Below, one piece after another: positions 1-7,662 of a DNA stretch of 64,000 nucleotides. Positions within the stretch are counted from its first letter, which is position 1, and every line of letters begins with the position of its first letter. The position numbers and the translations under genes are program-made. The notes under the pieces were generated by a model. That model had not been told where the DNA came from. It ran no database searches and was given only the letters and a program-made list of their open reading frames with translations. This DNA comes from Nitrospira sp. GTDB lineage: Bacteria; Nitrospirota; Nitrospiria; Nitrospirales; Nitrospiraceae. The DNA lies in contig JAURZE010000026.1 in the NCBI GenBank assembly GCA_030653545.1, positions 248,001 through 312,000 on the forward strand, read 5' to 3'.

Positions 1-990
1 TTCGACCTCGTGGGATTTCTGCTGCTTCTGACCCTGCTGCTGGGCCTGCAGACGTTTCTCAACATGGGTAATGATTTCGACTGGCTGGACTCGCCCCTTC
101 TCCAAGCGATCGGCGTCGTCCTGTTGATCGCCCTCCCCTGTTTCGTGATCTGGGAACTCGGCGAGCGGCACCCCACGCTGGATCTCCGGCTGTTTCAGCA
201 CCGTAATTTCCTCATCGGCGTCACGTGCCTGACCATCGGATTCTTTTCCATCCAAGGCCTGCTCTCGCTCCTGGTCGTGCAGATCCAGTTAATTCTTGGC
301 TATTCGTCGAAATTGGCCGGCCTCGCGCTGCTCCCGCTGGTTCTCCTGGGCGCCCCTGCGATCGCCGTCATGCACCTGCTCTGCAAATACATCGATGCGC
401 GCTGGCTGATCTGTCTCAACAGTCTCGGATTTGCCGCCACCTTTTACTGGATCGGCTTGTTCGATGACCCCCATTCGTATGACGAGCTGTTCTGGCCGAT
501 GGTCGTGGAAGGCATTTTCCTCGGCTCGTTCTTCACGCCGCTGACGGTGCTGATCCTGCACGGTCTGTCAGGTCCTCTGGTGATGCGCGCGGCCGAGGTC
601 GCCAATCTCTTGCGGGTTGCCGCCGGCGCGTTCGGCATCACGTTCCAAGGCATCGTCCTCTTTCGGCGCGCGCACTTTCATCAACTCAATCTGGCCGACC
701 ACTTCGGCGGGCGGCTGTCCATCTCGTACGATCCGCTGGGGCAGTTGACGACCAAACTCATGGAGGCGGGACTCGCGCCGTCGCAAGTGAACGCCAAACT
801 CGGCGCGTTGATCAAACAAGAGGCGGCGATCCTGAGCCTGAACGATGCCTTTCTGGTGGCCAGCGGTCTGTTCCTCGGCATCGGGGCGCTGGTCTGGCTC
901 GCGCATCCGACTCTCGTGCCACTCTCGCCGACTCCGGCGGAAGAGTTGCGGGAACTCCGCGCGGAAGCATTGATCGAGGAGGTGCCATGA
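1..990 (+). CDS. EmrB/QacA-type MFS drug:H+ antiporter, C-terminal part
   Basis: The reading frame is open from the first base, so this is the C-terminal ~330 residues of a longer protein. It has a series of long hydrophobic segments typical of the second half of a 14-helix DHA2-family major facilitator. The charged tail ends in a Glu-rich stretch. The stop overlaps the next start as ATGA (987-990), and the following genes encode a TolC-like outer-membrane factor and an EmrA-like adaptor, so this should be the inner-membrane pump of a tripartite efflux system. Substrate cannot be read from the sequence. The N-terminal half, which carries family motifs A and C, lies outside the window. Confidence 0.87.
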   Translation, partial: FDLVGFLLLLTLLLGLQTFLNMGNDFDWLDSPLLQAIGVVLLIALPCFVIWELGERHPTLDLRLFQHRNFLIGVTCLTIGFFSIQGLLSLLVVQIQLILGYSSKLAGLALLPLVLLGAPAIAVMHLLCKYIDARWLICLNSLGFAATFYWIGLFDDPHSYDELFWPMVVEGIFLGSFFTPLTVLILHGLSGPLVMRAAEVANLLRVAAGAFGITFQGIVLFRRAHFHQLNLADHFGGRLSISYDPLGQLTTKLMEAGLAPSQVNAKLGALIKQEAAILSLNDAFLVASGLFLGIGALVWLAHPTLVPLSPTPAEELRELRAEALIEEVP

Positions 991-2501
991 CATCCCGTTG
1001 CATCAGGGCACTGCAACTGCGGATCAACCTCGGCATCGCCTGCGCGCTGCTCTTCGGCAGTTGCGCCTGGATTCCGCCGGGGAATCCTCCCGCCGAGTTG
1101 CTCGAACCACCGGAAATGCAAGAGACCCTCGCTGAAGTCGCTAGCCGGCTTCAACAATGGCCGGAGGAACACTGGTGGACGCAATTCAGCAGTCCGGAAT
1201 TGAACGCACTCATCGAAACGGCCCTTAAAGACAATCCCGGCCTCAAGCGCGCATCGGCGCGGTTGCGTGAAGCCGAAGCGCTGGTGAAAGTGGAAGGCGC
1301 GCGGCTGCTGCCGTTTCTGGAAGCCGATGCCTCGCTGACCCACGAACGCATTTCGCAACACGGCGTGTTTGCGGTTCTGAATCCGAAAGTGGCGGGAGAC
1401 AGGATTCTGCTGGGGATCGTCAATCCACTGAGCTTCCGGTACGAGTTCGATTTCTGGGGGAAAAACCGAGCCACGGTCGAAGCGGCGCTGGGACAAGCGG
1501 CCGCGGAAGAAGCTGAAAAGGCCGAAGTGCGCCTGCGGCTGACCGCCGCCATTGCGCGGTCCTATTTCAAAGGGCAAGCACTTCAGCAGCAGCTCGGCAT
1601 CGTGAAGACCTTGGTCGCCATCCGCCAGAACCTGCGTACACTCGCTGAGATCCGGTTCCGTCTCGGCCTGGATAACGAACATCCCGTGAAAATCGCCGTC
1701 GCCGATTATGAAGCGGCGGTTAAACGCCAGACAGGCATCCGCGATCAACTGGATGTTCAGCGCCATGTTCTTGCGCGGCTGGCCGGCCAAGGCCCCGATT
1801 ATGCGCTCCACCTGTTTACAAAACCGGTCGCCGTCATGCCCGAACAGATTGCAGCGCCCGATCATCTCTCCATCGGGTTGCTGATCCATCGCCCCGATTT
1901 GGCCGCAGCTCTCTACCGGGCCGACGCCGCCGCGCGGTTGGTCAAAGTCGCCAAGACGCAATTTTACCCCACGATCGATCTCACGGCCTTCGTCGGATTC
2001 AACGCGCTCACGCTGATGAAACACGCCGATAAATTATCCAATCTGCTGTTCAGCGGCCAGAGCAACGCCTATGGCTTCGCGCCGGGGCTGCGCATGCCCT
2101 GGTTCGAGGGCGGCCGCCTGCGGGGAGAGCTGGCCGCGCAACGGGCGGAATACGACTCGGCCGTGGAACTCTACAATGAGACGCTGCTCGATGCGATGCG
2201 CGACGTGGCCGACAGCCTCAGTGCCTGGCAGGCGACGCGCGAGATGATCGAGTCGCACAAGCGCCTGATGGCCTCCCTCGGCGAAGACGTGCAATTGGCG
2301 AAGGTGCGGCTCATCACAGGCCTGGATGACGATCGCGAGGTCTTACGGCATCGCCAGCCGGTGCTGGAACAGGAATATGCGCTGAGAGCGCTGGAAAGCG
2401 ACCAACTGGTCGCGGCCGTGGATCTCATAGAAGCGCTGGGCGGCGGCTATAAGAATCAGGATATCGAAAAGAGACCACAACACAACCCGAGTACACAATG
2501 A
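987..2501 (+). CDS. TolC/NodT-type outer-membrane efflux lipoprotein
   Basis: This 504-residue protein starts with a signal sequence ending in a lipobox (LFGSC, Cys26), as in NodT/OprM-type outer-membrane factors. Two long alpha-helical repeats rich in Ala, Glu and Arg cover roughly residues 85-260 and 300-470, matching the duplicated OEP domain that builds the periplasmic tunnel. It overlaps the pump gene by 4 nt and the adaptor gene by 4 nt (2498-2501), so the three are probably translationally coupled. Role: the outer-membrane channel through which the pump and adaptor expel substrates. Family assignment is firm; the substrate is unknown. Confidence 0.9.
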   Translation: MTSRCIRALQLRINLGIACALLFGSCAWIPPGNPPAELLEPPEMQETLAEVASRLQQWPEEHWWTQFSSPELNALIETALKDNPGLKRASARLREAEALVKVEGARLLPFLEADASLTHERISQHGVFAVLNPKVAGDRILLGIVNPLSFRYEFDFWGKNRATVEAALGQAAAEEAEKAEVRLRLTAAIARSYFKGQALQQQLGIVKTLVAIRQNLRTLAEIRFRLGLDNEHPVKIAVADYEAAVKRQTGIRDQLDVQRHVLARLAGQGPDYALHLFTKPVAVMPEQIAAPDHLSIGLLIHRPDLAAALYRADAAARLVKVAKTQFYPTIDLTAFVGFNALTLMKHADKLSNLLFSGQSNAYGFAPGLRMPWFEGGRLRGELAAQRAEYDSAVELYNETLLDAMRDVADSLSAWQATREMIESHKRLMASLGEDVQLAKVRLITGLDDDREVLRHRQPVLEQEYALRALESDQLVAAVDLIEALGGGYKNQDIEKRPQHNPSTQ

Positions 2502-4021
2502 CCACAACACCGCCCCCCTCCACGACGTCACCGGCACCGGGCTCTTCCCGGATCCACCCCAAGGCCATCCGCGCCCGCCGGAACCGGCGGCTGTTGATCG
2601 TGGCCGGACTCGTGCTGATCGCCACCGTCGGCTATCTCAACTACTGGTGGACGCACGACCGGTTCTGGGTCCGCACCGACAATGCGTATGTAACCGGCAA
2701 CCTCGTCCCGGTTGCCGCGCAAGCCTCCGGGATTGTCACGCAGGTGCTGGCCGAGGAAACGCAATTTGTGAATCGGGGCGACTTGATGATCCGCCTCGAC
2801 GAACATCAGGCCTACGCGGCGCTGGGGCGCGCGCGCGGGCATCTCGGAGAGGAAGTCCGGCGCATCGCGGCCCTCTTCATGACGAGAAAACAGCTGGCAG
2901 AACAATTGACCTCACGGTCTGCCCGCGTGAATCTGGCGCTCCACGACATGGCGCGCTATCGGGCGGCGGCGGCGAGCGGTGCCGTGTCCAAGCAAATCCT
3001 CCAAAATACGTCTGATAAACTTCTGTCGCTGGAAGCGGACGTACGGGAAACGCAGGCGGAACTCGATACGCTCGATGCGCAGGTGGGCGGCACGACGGTC
3101 ATGGCGCATCCGGCCGTCGAGTTGGCCAAACATCAGCTCATCGAAGCCTATCTGGAATATACCCGCCAACAGATCAAGGCACCAATCTCCGGCTATGTGG
3201 CAAAACGGAAGGCGCAGGTCGGCGATCGCGTGCATCCCGGCGCGCCGCTGATGACGATCGTGCCGCTGGATCATTTGTGGGTTGAGGCGAATCTGCGGGA
3301 AACCGAGCTGCAACATATCCGCCCGGGACAGACGGCGCTGGTCAACGTCGGTCTATACGGATCGCAATACACCTTTCACGGCACAGTCGAAGGACTCGTG
3401 CCCGGCAGCGGGAGCGCATTCGCCTTATTGCCGCCGGACAACGCCACGGGCAACTTCATCCATATCGTCGAACGGGTTCCGGTCCGCATCGCGCTGCCGG
3501 AACAGGAGATTCGTGAGCATCCGATCAGGCCGGGTCTGTCCACCGTCACGACGATCAATATCGGGGAAACCGGGCAGTCTGTGTGGTCGTCTTCAGCCTC
3601 GCCCTCGACGGCCGAGTATGCCACCGATGTCTATGCCGACGAACTTCCCACCGCAGAGGCCATGGCGAAAGAAGTGATGACCAATAATCTCGTGATCGCA
3701 CACCATGACAAATTGAACGACGTGTTGCTGGCGCGGGAGGACGGGAGCAAGCGACCGGCGGACCTGGAACAAGGCACTTGGCGAAAATCCTCCAAGGCCG
3801 TGCCCCCCGTTGATTCAGCCGTGAGGTCCGAACACGTCGATCATCTTTCCCGCTCATTTGTTCCGCGGCACAGTCCCGATCTGGGAGTCTCAGCCTCTCC
3901 ACTGACCCCCTCCATCGGTCCGGGTTCCGGCTTACTGGGACCGGAGGGAGGACGCAGCCCCTCCCGACTCCGCCTGGACATGGATCAGAACTACGGCAGG
4001 CAATCCTTCGATTCCAGATAA
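2498..4021 (+). CDS. EmrA/HlyD-type membrane fusion protein with a long C-terminal tail
   Basis: This 507-residue protein has one N-terminal membrane helix (about residues 30-50) and then the HlyD pattern: a lipoyl-like half around residues 60-95 (RTDNAYVTGNLVPVAAQASG), a coiled-coil hairpin to about 225, the second lipoyl half (IKAPISGYVAKRKAQVGDRV) and a beta-barrel domain. EmrA family members usually stop near residue 390. Here about 120 further residues, polar and rich in Pro, Ser and Asp, follow and show no domain I recognise. The gene is last in the efflux operon and should bridge the MFS pump and the TolC-like channel. The tail could be a genuine extension or unconserved sequence caused by loss of an earlier stop. 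Confidence 0.9.
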   Translation: MTTTPPPSTTSPAPGSSRIHPKAIRARRNRRLLIVAGLVLIATVGYLNYWWTHDRFWVRTDNAYVTGNLVPVAAQASGIVTQVLAEETQFVNRGDLMIRLDEHQAYAALGRARGHLGEEVRRIAALFMTRKQLAEQLTSRSARVNLALHDMARYRAAAASGAVSKQILQNTSDKLLSLEADVRETQAELDTLDAQVGGTTVMAHPAVELAKHQLIEAYLEYTRQQIKAPISGYVAKRKAQVGDRVHPGAPLMTIVPLDHLWVEANLRETELQHIRPGQTALVNVGLYGSQYTFHGTVEGLVPGSGSAFALLPPDNATGNFIHIVERVPVRIALPEQEIREHPIRPGLSTVTTINIGETGQSVWSSSASPSTAEYATDVYADELPTAEAMAKEVMTNNLVIAHHDKLNDVLLAREDGSKRPADLEQGTWRKSSKAVPPVDSAVRSEHVDHLSRSFVPRHSPDLGVSASPLTPSIGPGSGLLGPEGGRSPSRLRLDMDQNYGRQSFDSR

Positions 4022-4732: not shown

Positions 4733-4954
4733 ATGCGGCCGAGCGGCGCCGACCTTTTGTCTGCAACCATCGAATCCAGAATTCGCGACCTCGTCGTTCG
4801 GGAGCGGACACTCACCTTCACCGGTCTCGCGGCTGCTCTTTCCGACTGTCGATGGATCAGCCTCTTGCGAGCGCTGAACCACCTTGAGCAACAGCAGGTG
4901 ATCAGCCTCACCCCGCTCCCCTGGGATTACCAAATCTGCGTGAGGACTGAGTAG
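4733..4954 (+). CDS. Small winged-helix-like protein, unknown function
   Basis: The start at 4733 is chosen because GGAGG lies at 4721-4725; the frame is open further upstream, to an ATG at 4682, without a comparable site. The product is 73 residues. It reads as two or three helices and a short beta wing: IESRIRDLVVRERTLTFTGL, then a segment with SLLRALNHLEQQQVISLTPL. The pattern resembles a minimal winged helix as in small transcriptional regulators, but there is no motif that proves DNA binding. It sits 3 bp before the zinc-ribbon gene and is probably co-transcribed with it. Function is unknown; the fold is a guess from helix pattern. Confidence 0.55.
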   Translation: MRPSGADLLSATIESRIRDLVVRERTLTFTGLAAALSDCRWISLLRALNHLEQQQVISLTPLPWDYQICVRTE

Positions 4955-4957
4955 GCG

Positions 4958-5323
4958 ATGAAGATGTCCTGTCTCCGATGTGGCGGGTTACTCGTGAGGG
5001 AACGCCTGTTTGAGGTAAACGGCATGAGCTCCGCTGAACAGGTCGAATGTGATCGCTGTGTGAATTGCGGGTCACTCGAGGACATGATCATCCGTGCCAA
5101 TCGCCGGCCGTCCAGTCGGCCCCTGCTATCGCGGGAACCCCGTGGCCCACGTGACCGTTCCACGGCCCCCACCGGTGCCTCGATCGATCCACACCGCAAA
5201 GGAGGAGCCTATGACATCTCTCAACAGCAGGCACACGGCTATTCAATACACCTTGATAACCGGAGTAGCGCTCCTCTTCCTTGCCACTGCGTGGGAAGTG
5301 AAGGGAGCCATTCAGCGGAATGA
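4958..5323 (+). CDS. Zinc-ribbon-like protein with an unusual overlapping tail
   Basis: The first ~50 residues carry two CxxC pairs (CLRCGG near the start and CDRCVNCGS about 30 residues on), a typical treble-clef or zinc-ribbon arrangement, followed by an acidic segment and an NRR motif. After that the frame runs on for ~70 residues of low-complexity Pro/Arg/Ser sequence and overlaps the first 113 bases of the following gene in another frame. The likely reading is a functional ~55-residue zinc-ribbon protein whose original stop was lost, so the tail is probably not conserved. Role unknown; such small CxxC proteins often bind nucleic acid or protein partners. Confidence 0.55.
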   Translation: MKMSCLRCGGLLVRERLFEVNGMSSAEQVECDRCVNCGSLEDMIIRANRRPSSRPLLSREPRGPRDRSTAPTGASIDPHRKGGAYDISQQQAHGYSIHLDNRSSAPLPCHCVGSEGSHSAE

Positions 5324-5966
5324 GTTGAATCATGATTTCGACAGCCAGGCTGCCCGCACCATGCTGGAAGCCACCGTCGGCATCTCTGTAGACGGCCGCT
5401 CACATGAGTTGGGAACGGGTGGCGGCGTCATCTTTCTGCCATCGGGCACCATCATTACGAATGGCCAGGTCGTGGACGGAGCGACGGCTGTGGATGTCCG
5501 CCTCGCCGACGGTCGACACAGGCAAGGGCACGTGGTCCGGCGAGATCCGTTCACCGATCTCGCGGTCATTCAGCTGGTCGATACCGGGGTACGTTGGCCC
5601 CCTCTGAAAACCGGGAATTCTGACCGCGTACGGGTCGGAGACCAAGTCTTTCTCATCGCTGCCACCCAATCGGGCGGAGAGCTGCGCAGGGGCCGCATCA
5701 CCGATCTCTATCCGATGCAGCGCGAAGTGCGGCTCATTCAAACCAGCATCCCCATCCGATCCGATGAGGCCGGAAGCGCGCTGGTGAACGCGGACGGCCA
5801 CATCATCGGAATCGTCACGACCGCACTCCCCGGAGGCCGCAGCGTGGCCTCCGCCACAGCCGTCAACTCCGCCAAAGATCTCGTGTTATCAATGGTGGCC
5901 GGTCCTGCCCCTTCTCCTCTTCAAGAGGTACCCAATGAAACGCCTTCGCATTCTCCTGTGCGATGA
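5211..5966 (+). CDS. HtrA/DegP-like pseudoprotease, membrane anchored
   Basis: The start at 5211 follows AAAGGAGG at 5199-5206. The 251-residue protein has an N-terminal hydrophobic segment (about residues 14-27) and then a trypsin-like S1C domain. The segment normally reading TN-N-H-VV reads TNGQVVDG (Gln86 replaces the catalytic His). The Asp is kept (TDLAVIQL, Asp116). The GNSGG nucleophile motif reads DEAGSALVN, so Ala187 replaces the Ser. Two of three catalytic residues are gone, so it should not be a peptidase. No PDZ domain follows. It probably binds extended peptides in the periplasm or at the membrane. The response regulator gene overlaps its 3' end by 32 bp. Confidence 0.8.
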   Translation: MTSLNSRHTAIQYTLITGVALLFLATAWEVKGAIQRNELNHDFDSQAARTMLEATVGISVDGRSHELGTGGGVIFLPSGTIITNGQVVDGATAVDVRLADGRHRQGHVVRRDPFTDLAVIQLVDTGVRWPPLKTGNSDRVRVGDQVFLIAATQSGGELRRGRITDLYPMQREVRLIQTSIPIRSDEAGSALVNADGHIIGIVTTALPGGRSVASATAVNSAKDLVLSMVAGPAPSPLQEVPNETPSHSPVR

Positions 5967-6351
5967 TGAATCGCAGATGCTCTCGTTGCTTCAATCGGTC
6001 CTGGAGCCCGAATACTCTGTAGTCGGGACCGCGGAGGATGGACAGGTCCTCATCGCGGCCGCGCAAGCTCTACGACCTGATCTCGTGCTGACGGATATCG
6101 AGATGCCGCGGATGGATGGTATCGAAGCCGTGCGGGAACTCCGCAAAACACTGCCGGACTGTCGCGTGATCTTTCACACCTCCCACACCGAACCGGAAGT
6201 AATGGCGGCGGCATTCTCGGCCGGCGCGTCCGGATACCTGATCAAGGGATCCACGCAGTCTTTGGTCTTAGCCATTCGCACCGTTGTGCGACACGCGTGG
6301 AGTCGCGACGAGGAGCTTGCCATCGGACAAGCGGCGTTTCACATGAACTAG
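5935..6351 (+). CDS. Single-domain response regulator (CheY-like)
   Basis: This 138-residue protein is a receiver domain with no output domain: acidic pair Asp10-Asp11, phospho-acceptor Asp54 in VLTDIEMPRMDG, a conserved Thr/Ser region (IFHTSHTE) and the Lys of YLIKGS. A purine-rich AAGAGG lies just before the start, inside the end of the HtrA-like gene, so the two genes are coupled. No histidine kinase gene is in the window. It may act by protein contact, or as part of a phosphorelay whose other members lie elsewhere. The C-terminal ~25 residues are an added helix. Confidence 0.9.
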   Translation: MKRLRILLCDDESQMLSLLQSVLEPEYSVVGTAEDGQVLIAAAQALRPDLVLTDIEMPRMDGIEAVRELRKTLPDCRVIFHTSHTEPEVMAAAFSAGASGYLIKGSTQSLVLAIRTVVRHAWSRDEELAIGQAAFHMN

Positions 6352-6369: not shown

Positions 6370-7611
6370 CTAGAAAAAACTCATCGAGGCGTAGGTGACG
6401 GTCGAGTTGTACTGATCGGTGATGCCGCGGTCGTAGCGAAGGACCTGGCCTGATTCGGCTTCGATGAGGCGCAAAAGAGCATAGATGGGCGCGAACCCGG
6501 AGATGCGGCGCTTATCGTTCTCGGTGATGATGTACTTGGTGAACTCTTCCGGCTTCCGCTCTTCCACCGGCTTCAACATTTCCAGATCGTGCTGCATCGA
6601 TCGATGGAACGAGAAGTCCGTCGGCGGCTCTTTATCCCCGTAGCGCATCCCGAGATGGGCCAGCTCCGCCGCCGCGACGACACAGTAGCTGCGGCCTGAC
6701 GTCTTGAGGATGTCGCGCAGCCCGGCCAGAAACACTTCGACCGATTGCTGGATCGGGGCTTCCGCCATGCTCAGCGCGGAAAATGAGCAGAGAATCGGCA
6801 CAATGGTAAAGGGCTTCTTGGCTCCTACGATCTGCTGGAGAAACGGCAATTGGAACTCAATCGCATGCTCGGCTTGGTGGCAGAGATCCTCTTCGAACGC
6901 CACGGGGAACCGTTCTTTGATCTTCGCCAGCAAGGGCTGATCGGCCTTCACCACACCGAGCGGCGTCTCAAAATCCTTGTCCGTGACGGCAAAGAGATTG
7001 TCGAGACCGGCGTAGGCCGTGCCGATGACGACATAGACATCCGGCTGCGTCGCCTCTTGCAGTTCCTTGTAGGCCCAGGCGTAGATCGAACCGGCCTGTT
7101 TCAGATCGTAGGTCGGCGCAACCAGCCCCTTGATGGGTTTGCCGGCATTCTCTGAGGGTTTAAAGTCCGGGCCTTCTTTCGACGTAAAAAATCCGTCGAT
7201 CTGCTTCTTCAATTTCAGGCCGTCCGCCTCGTAGGCGCGGCCGGCAAAGGACGCTGTGCGAAGCGGGCTCTCACGATACTGCGCGCGCTGCTCTCTGCGG
7301 GCTTCTTCTGCCCGTTCCCCTTCCAGAAACAGTTTCTGATCGAGGTCGGTTACCAACTGCTCAACCTTATCCGGCATCAGGAACTCACCGAACCGTTTCA
7401 GATAGAGGGCCCCCACTTGCTGGAGAGAATGCTCGCCGTCGAAATGCTGAATGATGAAGAAGTAGTTGAGCGGAAGCACCAGCCGTTCCTTGCTCAGGCC
7501 GGTCGGATCCCACAACACGATGTACTGCTCTTCTCCTTCCTTAATGGGGGAGAACTGGAGATTGCGCAGGGCTGGATAGTGCTTGGGGTCTTTGGCAGTC
7601 GTGGTAGTCAT
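6370..7611 (-). CDS. Memo-like (AmmeMemoRadiSam protein B family) protein with N-terminal extension
   Basis: The start at 7611 is preferred because AAGGAGCATT precedes it. The 413-residue product has ~120 N-terminal residues with no recognised domain, then a Memo-type domain. Family landmarks are the EHAIEFQLPFLQ segment, the IVPILCSF strand and the AAELAHLGMRYG segment. Where most Memo proteins have a PHAGY motif, this one reads APTYDLKQAG, so a metal-ligand His appears to be missing. No AMMECR1 or radical SAM partner is nearby. It is the last gene of the GlmL/DUF6754 locus but also has its own promoter-like sequence. Catalytic function is unknown. Confidence 0.75.
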   Translation of the reverse strand: MTTTTAKDPKHYPALRNLQFSPIKEGEEQYIVLWDPTGLSKERLVLPLNYFFIIQHFDGEHSLQQVGALYLKRFGEFLMPDKVEQLVTDLDQKLFLEGERAEEARREQRAQYRESPLRTASFAGRAYEADGLKLKKQIDGFFTSKEGPDFKPSENAGKPIKGLVAPTYDLKQAGSIYAWAYKELQEATQPDVYVVIGTAYAGLDNLFAVTDKDFETPLGVVKADQPLLAKIKERFPVAFEEDLCHQAEHAIEFQLPFLQQIVGAKKPFTIVPILCSFSALSMAEAPIQQSVEVFLAGLRDILKTSGRSYCVVAAAELAHLGMRYGDKEPPTDFSFHRSMQHDLEMLKPVEERKPEEFTKYIITENDKRRISGFAPIYALLRLIEAESGQVLRYDRGITDQYNSTVTYASMSFF

Positions 7612-7632
7612 AATGCTCCTTGGTCGAGCGCC

Positions 7633-7662
7633 ATTGTAAAGGAGGGAAAGAAGAAGCTGCAA
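7633..7662 (-). promoter_or_regulatory. Candidate sigma70 promoter of the Memo-like gene
   Basis: Minus-strand TTGCAG (7662-7657) and TACAAT (7638-7633) are separated by 18 bp, about 20 bp before the start codon at 7611. The -10 matches consensus at five of six positions. If real, it uncouples the Memo-like gene from the upstream operon. Confidence 0.45.

Follow-up and report, generated by a model that had tools for sequence, protein, structure and literature searches.

Within the 64,000-nucleotide stretch of Nitrospira sp. DNA analyzed here (the window; part of contig C26 of genome G000, assembly GCA_030653545.1), an operon on the plus strand opens with a small conserved open reading frame (ORF) at 4733 to 4954, 73 amino acids long from this ATG, followed by a small CxxC...CxxC zinc-ribbon-like protein, ZnR (4958 to 5323); both were recognized by comparison and neither has a Pfam match. 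Next come a PDZ-less, HtrA-type protease homologue of 251 amino acids (5211 to 5966), identified by translation, Pfam, alignments, and an AlphaFold model, and a single-domain response regulator of 138 amino acids (5935 to 6351; Pfam Response_reg, 6.5e-27). The 3′ part of ZnR overlaps the start of the protease homologue, whose own end overlaps the start of the regulator by 32 bp (5935 to 5966). Neither an Rfam match nor a sigma-70 promoter was detected in the operon. It is flanked (window 1 to 4021 and 6370 to 7662) by efflux genes—MFS-type as judged by eye, OEP, and HlyD—and a Memo-like gene. The ATG of the protease homologue is preceded by a strong, clean Shine-Dalgarno sequence, AAAGGAGG (5198 to 5205, plus strand), and in the copy of Nitrospira sp. 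CG24D, its closest relative, the frame opens only three codons 5′ of the corresponding ATG (a 254-amino-acid open frame), so that the assigned start is sound.

At its N terminus, the protein carries a hydrophobic segment (residues ∼9 to 30; 5235 to 5300), seen in the hydropathy profile and the sequence, that could be a membrane anchor or a signal peptide. An original prediction, made from the letters of the window and their ORFs, had called the protein membrane anchored; the segment makes this plausible, with a cleavable signal peptide as the alternative, given a possible cleavage site at ATA (residues 25 to 27). The same prediction had noted the missing PDZ domain and the 32-bp overlap with a lone receiver gene, and in both respects Pfam and the sequence agree with it: a Pfam scan of the 251-residue ORF returned no PDZ. 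The ORF stops ∼22 residues past the protease domain, at the point where its nearest relatives run on into a PDZ domain, and we therefore regard the PDZ as lost; HtrA/Deg proteases have ∼390 to 480 residues, compared to 251 here.

Sequence comparison and structural modeling agree on the fold. Pfam Trypsin_2 matches residues 71 to 201 at 1.1e-21 (the Trypsin model at 4e-5), and the best solved relatives found by phmmer are DegP chains (1.4e-17). Scores against the NCBIfam Do/HhoA models fall below their cutoffs (86.7 compared to 450 and 84.3 compared to 416.2), as does that against the NCBIfam MamO model (28 bits compared to 800). A single-chain AlphaFold model built from a six-sequence alignment, made of the two known copies and four relatives from viral contigs, has a core pLDDT of mostly 68 to 88, compared to a mean of 34 for a model from the two-sequence alignment alone. 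Its best structural match is DegQ (Z 26.7; 2.2 Å over 178 residues); structures of DegS lacking the PDZ domain also match (Z ∼25), and the RsgI9 structure 7sjy is among the fold matches. The protein is thus assigned, on sequence and model, to the HtrA-type trypsin fold, with a fold match significant enough to rule out chance. The HtrA/Deg serine proteases carry the MEROPS label S1C.

Alignment to DegP and to 54 rows of Nitrospira-group HtrAs located the catalytic positions and bore out the substitutions that had been read from the sequence: Gln86 (codon CAG, 5466 to 5468) stands at the catalytic His, Ala187 (GCC, 5769 to 5771) stands at the catalytic Ser, and Asp116 (GAT, 5556 to 5558) is the sole triad residue kept. 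The GNSGG motif is replaced by D185-E-A187-G-S189 (5763 to 5777, plus strand), in which the oxyanion glycine is changed as well, with Asp185 at this position (193 in chymotrypsin numbering) in both copies. The His-Asp-Ser triad is present in all 54 of the other HtrA rows (∼43 distinct places, with some loci fetched twice and the CG24D copy, G065, set aside) and in all 26 of the other rows of the tree alignment, these rows being the best-scoring matches and not all HtrAs of their genomes. The CG24D copy retains His (TNGHVVDG) and Asp and has Ala for Ser, with a motif, DEAG[S/N], common to both copies. The expectation that homologues would share the replacements thus holds for the Ser and fails for the His. 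By these alignments, the Ser was lost before the window and CG24D lineages split, or was exchanged between them, and the His was lost later, privately in the window lineage, as would be expected once the nucleophile was already gone.

The gene is rare. A scan of 84,980 species genomes gave one complete relative, in the Nitrospira sp. CG24D MAG, which is syntenic and 78% identical over all 251 residues. Within the genus (79 genomes), G000 and G065 stand at ∼1e-164, and the best score after theirs is 1.1e-24; across the phylum (395 genomes), the runner-up (1e-29) is an intact DegS-like HtrA with a PDZ domain, and the viral contigs hold no close relatives. A third copy may lie in G032, where a run of exactly 100 N (L034, ∼1960 to 2060) separates the small ORF from the regulator at the place where the pseudoprotease would sit; 62 bases flush with this run match its last codons and lead into an orthologous regulator, from which we infer an unproven further copy in the gap. 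In the protein tree, the branch leading to the two copies is very long (∼1.8 substitutions per site) and its placement weakly supported, and the tree does not pin down a donor. Ten places in G000 match the pseudoprotease, itself included, and the three other HtrAs of this genome that were read (on C12, C15, and C22) have the full His-Asp-Ser triad.

The original prediction held the protein to be noncatalytic and took intact triads in close homologues as the mark of a lone decaying gene. The closest homologue, CG24D, also lacks the Ser, and comparison of the two copies (window 5211 to 5966 and L031 6001 to 6756) speaks for a gene kept under purifying selection, weaker than that on its neighbors, rather than one simply decaying. 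The dN/dS ratio, an estimate that rests on one pair given that just two complete copies are known, is 0.27 (bootstrap, 0.19 to 0.40); it is also 0.27 in codons 40 to 240, clear of the overlaps, and 0.21 over the catalytic domain (residues 66 to 205). The regulator has a dN/dS of 0.13 and the neighboring efflux genes 0.06 and 0.09, so that the pseudoprotease exceeds the efflux genes three- to fourfold. There is no indel across the 251 codons. When as many differences as observed (140) were simulated under neutrality, the frame stayed open in 700 of 20,000 runs, and in the first 2,000, for which identity was scored, the mean was 65% and the maximum 71%; none reached the observed 78%. The synonymous rate is uneven: dS exceeds 1 at the 5′ end but drops to 0.14 over codons 160 to 240. 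The latter segment holds the Ser site and has a dN/dS of 0.55, and recombination or a recent exchange between the lineages likely affected it; given these two values, the identity of DEAG between the copies is weak evidence of constraint.

These data bear most directly on the strongest competitor to a maintained function, namely, that an inserted protease domain was already without its Ser in the common ancestor and has since been drifting in the early stages of decay, with the His gone in the window lineage. The confinement of the gene to two (perhaps three) genomes, selection that is relaxed relative to that on the neighbors, the loss of His in one lineage, and the absence of the operon from related genomes all fit such a history. 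Nevertheless, a dN/dS whose upper bound is 0.40, a frame that is open and free of indels in both species, an identity above every scored simulation, and the clean Shine-Dalgarno sequence stand against it, and we regard early decay as unlikely, while giving it appreciable weight.

The history of the operon places the gene in a wider setting. In G025, G076, and G022, the small ORF, ZnR, and the regulator occur in the same order without a protease, and ZnR is by this comparison the older partner of the regulator. In a gyrB tree, G000 groups with G093, and G026 groups with G065 and G032 (the place of the last being less sure, its gyrB being partial); G025 branches outside these, and G022/G076 further out. 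Neither G093 nor G026 has DNA that matches the operon. In G026, ∼0.4 kb separates the flanking efflux genes from the Memo gene at the site expected for the operon, and in the close relative G093, the efflux DNA of the window has no match either. By these comparisons, the locus is gained and lost freely. Most simply, the protease gene would have entered the operon in the group of the window and CG24D, loss elsewhere being the alternative. A remnant of the protease 5′ end between ZnR and the regulator of G025 seemed visible by eye in a local alignment, but shuffled sequences aligned about as well (p 0.13 to 0.94), and we make no claim of one. ZnR (window 4958 to 5110) belongs to a paralogous family present in 74 of the 79 genomes of the genus, within which close orthologues (61 to 73%) are confined to G065, G025, G076, and G022.

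The original prediction went on to suggest a sensor: anchored in the membrane, the pseudo-HtrA would bind misfolded peptides and signal to the response regulator. The two ORFs do overlap on the same strand, and the regulator has every residue expected of a receiver (Asp10, Asp11, the phospho-acceptor Asp54, and Lys104), with no output domain detected by Pfam in 5935 to 6351. A protease fold serving as a sensor also has a precedent in RsgI9 (PMC12203970), yet RsgI9 owns a cytoplasmic part and the pseudoprotease has none. DegS reads misfolded porin C termini through its PDZ domain (PMC11642142). Here, there is no PDZ; of an exported pseudoprotease, just a dozen or so residues would remain in the cytoplasm, where the receiver resides; and no histidine kinase, scored as HATPase_c matches in G000, was found in the operon or within ∼9 kb. 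Of 64 such matches in the genome, the nearest is on the other strand, ∼9.3 kb upstream, and the rest of the window has none. The sensor model is therefore short of a detector, a relay, and a point of contact.

The 32-bp overlap, which had been read as a sign of coupling between the two genes, does not survive comparison. In six of the seven orthologous regulators, an ORF that comes in on the +2 frame, whatever it is, meets a stop 32 nucleotides into the regulator, set there by the regulator's own first codons, and in all seven the +1 frame closes after 4 nucleotides; in G022 and G076, which have no protease, the ZnR ORF ends at the same regulator-internal +2 stop. Since the regulator's codons set the stop and ZnR ends there too, the overlap says nothing particular about the pair and was rejected as a coupling sign; what it would still imply is shared transcription of pseudoprotease and regulator. 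With the overlap as a by-product and the regulator operon persisting protease free in three genomes, we consider the sensor improbable. Among these regulators, that of G025 (L035 1501 to 1917) carries Ala at the phospho-acceptor position, Asp54 in the window (LTAIELP in G025), and looks like a pseudo-receiver. Elsewhere in G000, a paralogous receiver (C26, 138054 to 138410) is 52% identical to the window regulator and follows a HATPase_c match by ∼0.8 kb on the same strand.

One further observation favors a link between envelope proteases and receivers: in related genomes, a lone small receiver gene closely precedes the intact DegS-like HtrA, on its strand, at 6 of the 14 loci examined. In these six (L161, L163, L167, L171, L173, and L174), the order on one strand is receiver, about one small gene, and intact DegS-like HtrA; the five receivers that were read share an MxGYG start, and the intervening gene encodes an Slp-type lipoprotein in one locus by Pfam and appears alike by eye in a second. 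Two pairs, G090/G091 and G408/G416, look close in the tree, which reduces the six to about four independent cases. A narrower test found an upstream receiver in 5 of 14 DegS-like loci compared to 1 of 37 other HtrA loci, and the wider test, which had given 6 of 14, found a receiver at one of the six other HtrA loci of G000 itself. The window departs from this pattern, in that its regulator lies downstream and is of another receiver type. We treat the arrangement as a lead for pairing and not as proof. That the Nitrospiraceae possess a recurring pairing of envelope HtrA and lone receiver, in which the HtrA has here turned into a noncatalytic sensor or titrating partner read by the regulator, seems to us as doubtful as the simpler sensor; if true, signaling would here run through an inactive protease that lacks a PDZ domain.

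Less probable still is that the protein is immaterial and the inserted gene acts as a polar element or spacer that just tunes translation of the downstream regulator. The regulator's ribosome-binding site does sit within the protease 3′ end, and the ZnR ORF makes the same kind of overlap in G022 and G076, but the dN/dS of 0.21 over residues 66 to 205 would be unexpected if the 3′ end alone mattered. We give almost no credence to an active hydrolase that uses a neighboring residue as nucleophile: Ser184 beside the site is kept in both copies, but the oxyanion glycine is Asp in both, the window copy has no His base, and a non-glycine at position 193 is argued to block the oxyanion hole of MamO (PMC4794232).

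The explanation that we favor, and hold to be about an even bet, is that of a lineage-restricted pseudoprotease derived from an HtrA/DegS-type protein, which binds in the envelope and is cotranscribed with the regulator. An ancestral HtrA/DegS-type domain would have been stripped of PDZ, nucleophile, and oxyanion glycine, with its gene coming to lie between those for ZnR and the regulator, which in relatives share an operon that lacks it. The product would be exported, probably tethered to the inner membrane, and would bind instead of cutting; its most likely role, by analogy with MamO, may be that of a partner or modulator of intact HtrAs or a binder of an envelope ligand, with the intact HtrAs of G000 as candidate partners. 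Weighing against this explanation are the absence of the whole operon from the related G093 and G026, a dN/dS above that of the efflux neighbors from one pair of copies, and the values for codons 160 to 240.

HtrA-type pseudoproteases are already known, to which this one adds a variant that lacks a PDZ and resides in a receiver operon; among the open-license papers listed, no title or abstract opening names it. As to a new signaling mechanism, the evidence shows none yet. Few HtrA-derived pseudoproteases have a known function, MamO being the clear bacterial case met here, and a PDZ-less pseudoprotease together with a relative that keeps its His offers a small system for studying what the HtrA fold does after cutting stops. 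The pair of copies also bears on the order in which active-site residues are lost.

Compared to the HtrA/Deg proteases (DegP, DegQ, and DegS), the pseudoprotease shares the Trypsin_2 fold, the N-terminal export or anchor segment, and the triad Asp, and differs in that it has no PDZ and has Ser and the oxyanion Gly replaced in both copies and His replaced in the window. Its best matches are DegS-like relatives from the same bacterial family (E 1e-29). Like the pseudoprotease, DegS has a hydrophobic segment at its N terminus followed by a single protease domain; unlike it, DegS is an active protease that senses through its PDZ (PMC11642142). RsgI9, an anti-sigma factor of Clostridium thermocellum, uses an S1C protease-like ectodomain in sensing and joins it to a transmembrane helix and a cytoplasmic anti-sigma part (PMC12203970), whereas the partner of the pseudoprotease is a separate cytoplasmic receiver with no visible contact to it. 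A parallel in kind is MamO of magnetotactic bacteria, which, together with inactive MamE copies, is derived from HtrA, has a degenerate triad, and is retained for noncatalytic work; MamO activates MamE-dependent proteolysis and binds metal (PMC4794232). Both proteins carry an acidic non-glycine at position 193, Glu in MamO and Asp185 here. The pseudoprotease has no TauE-like C-terminal domain and lies outside any magnetosome cluster; it is no member of the MamO family, and the likeness between the two is convergent.
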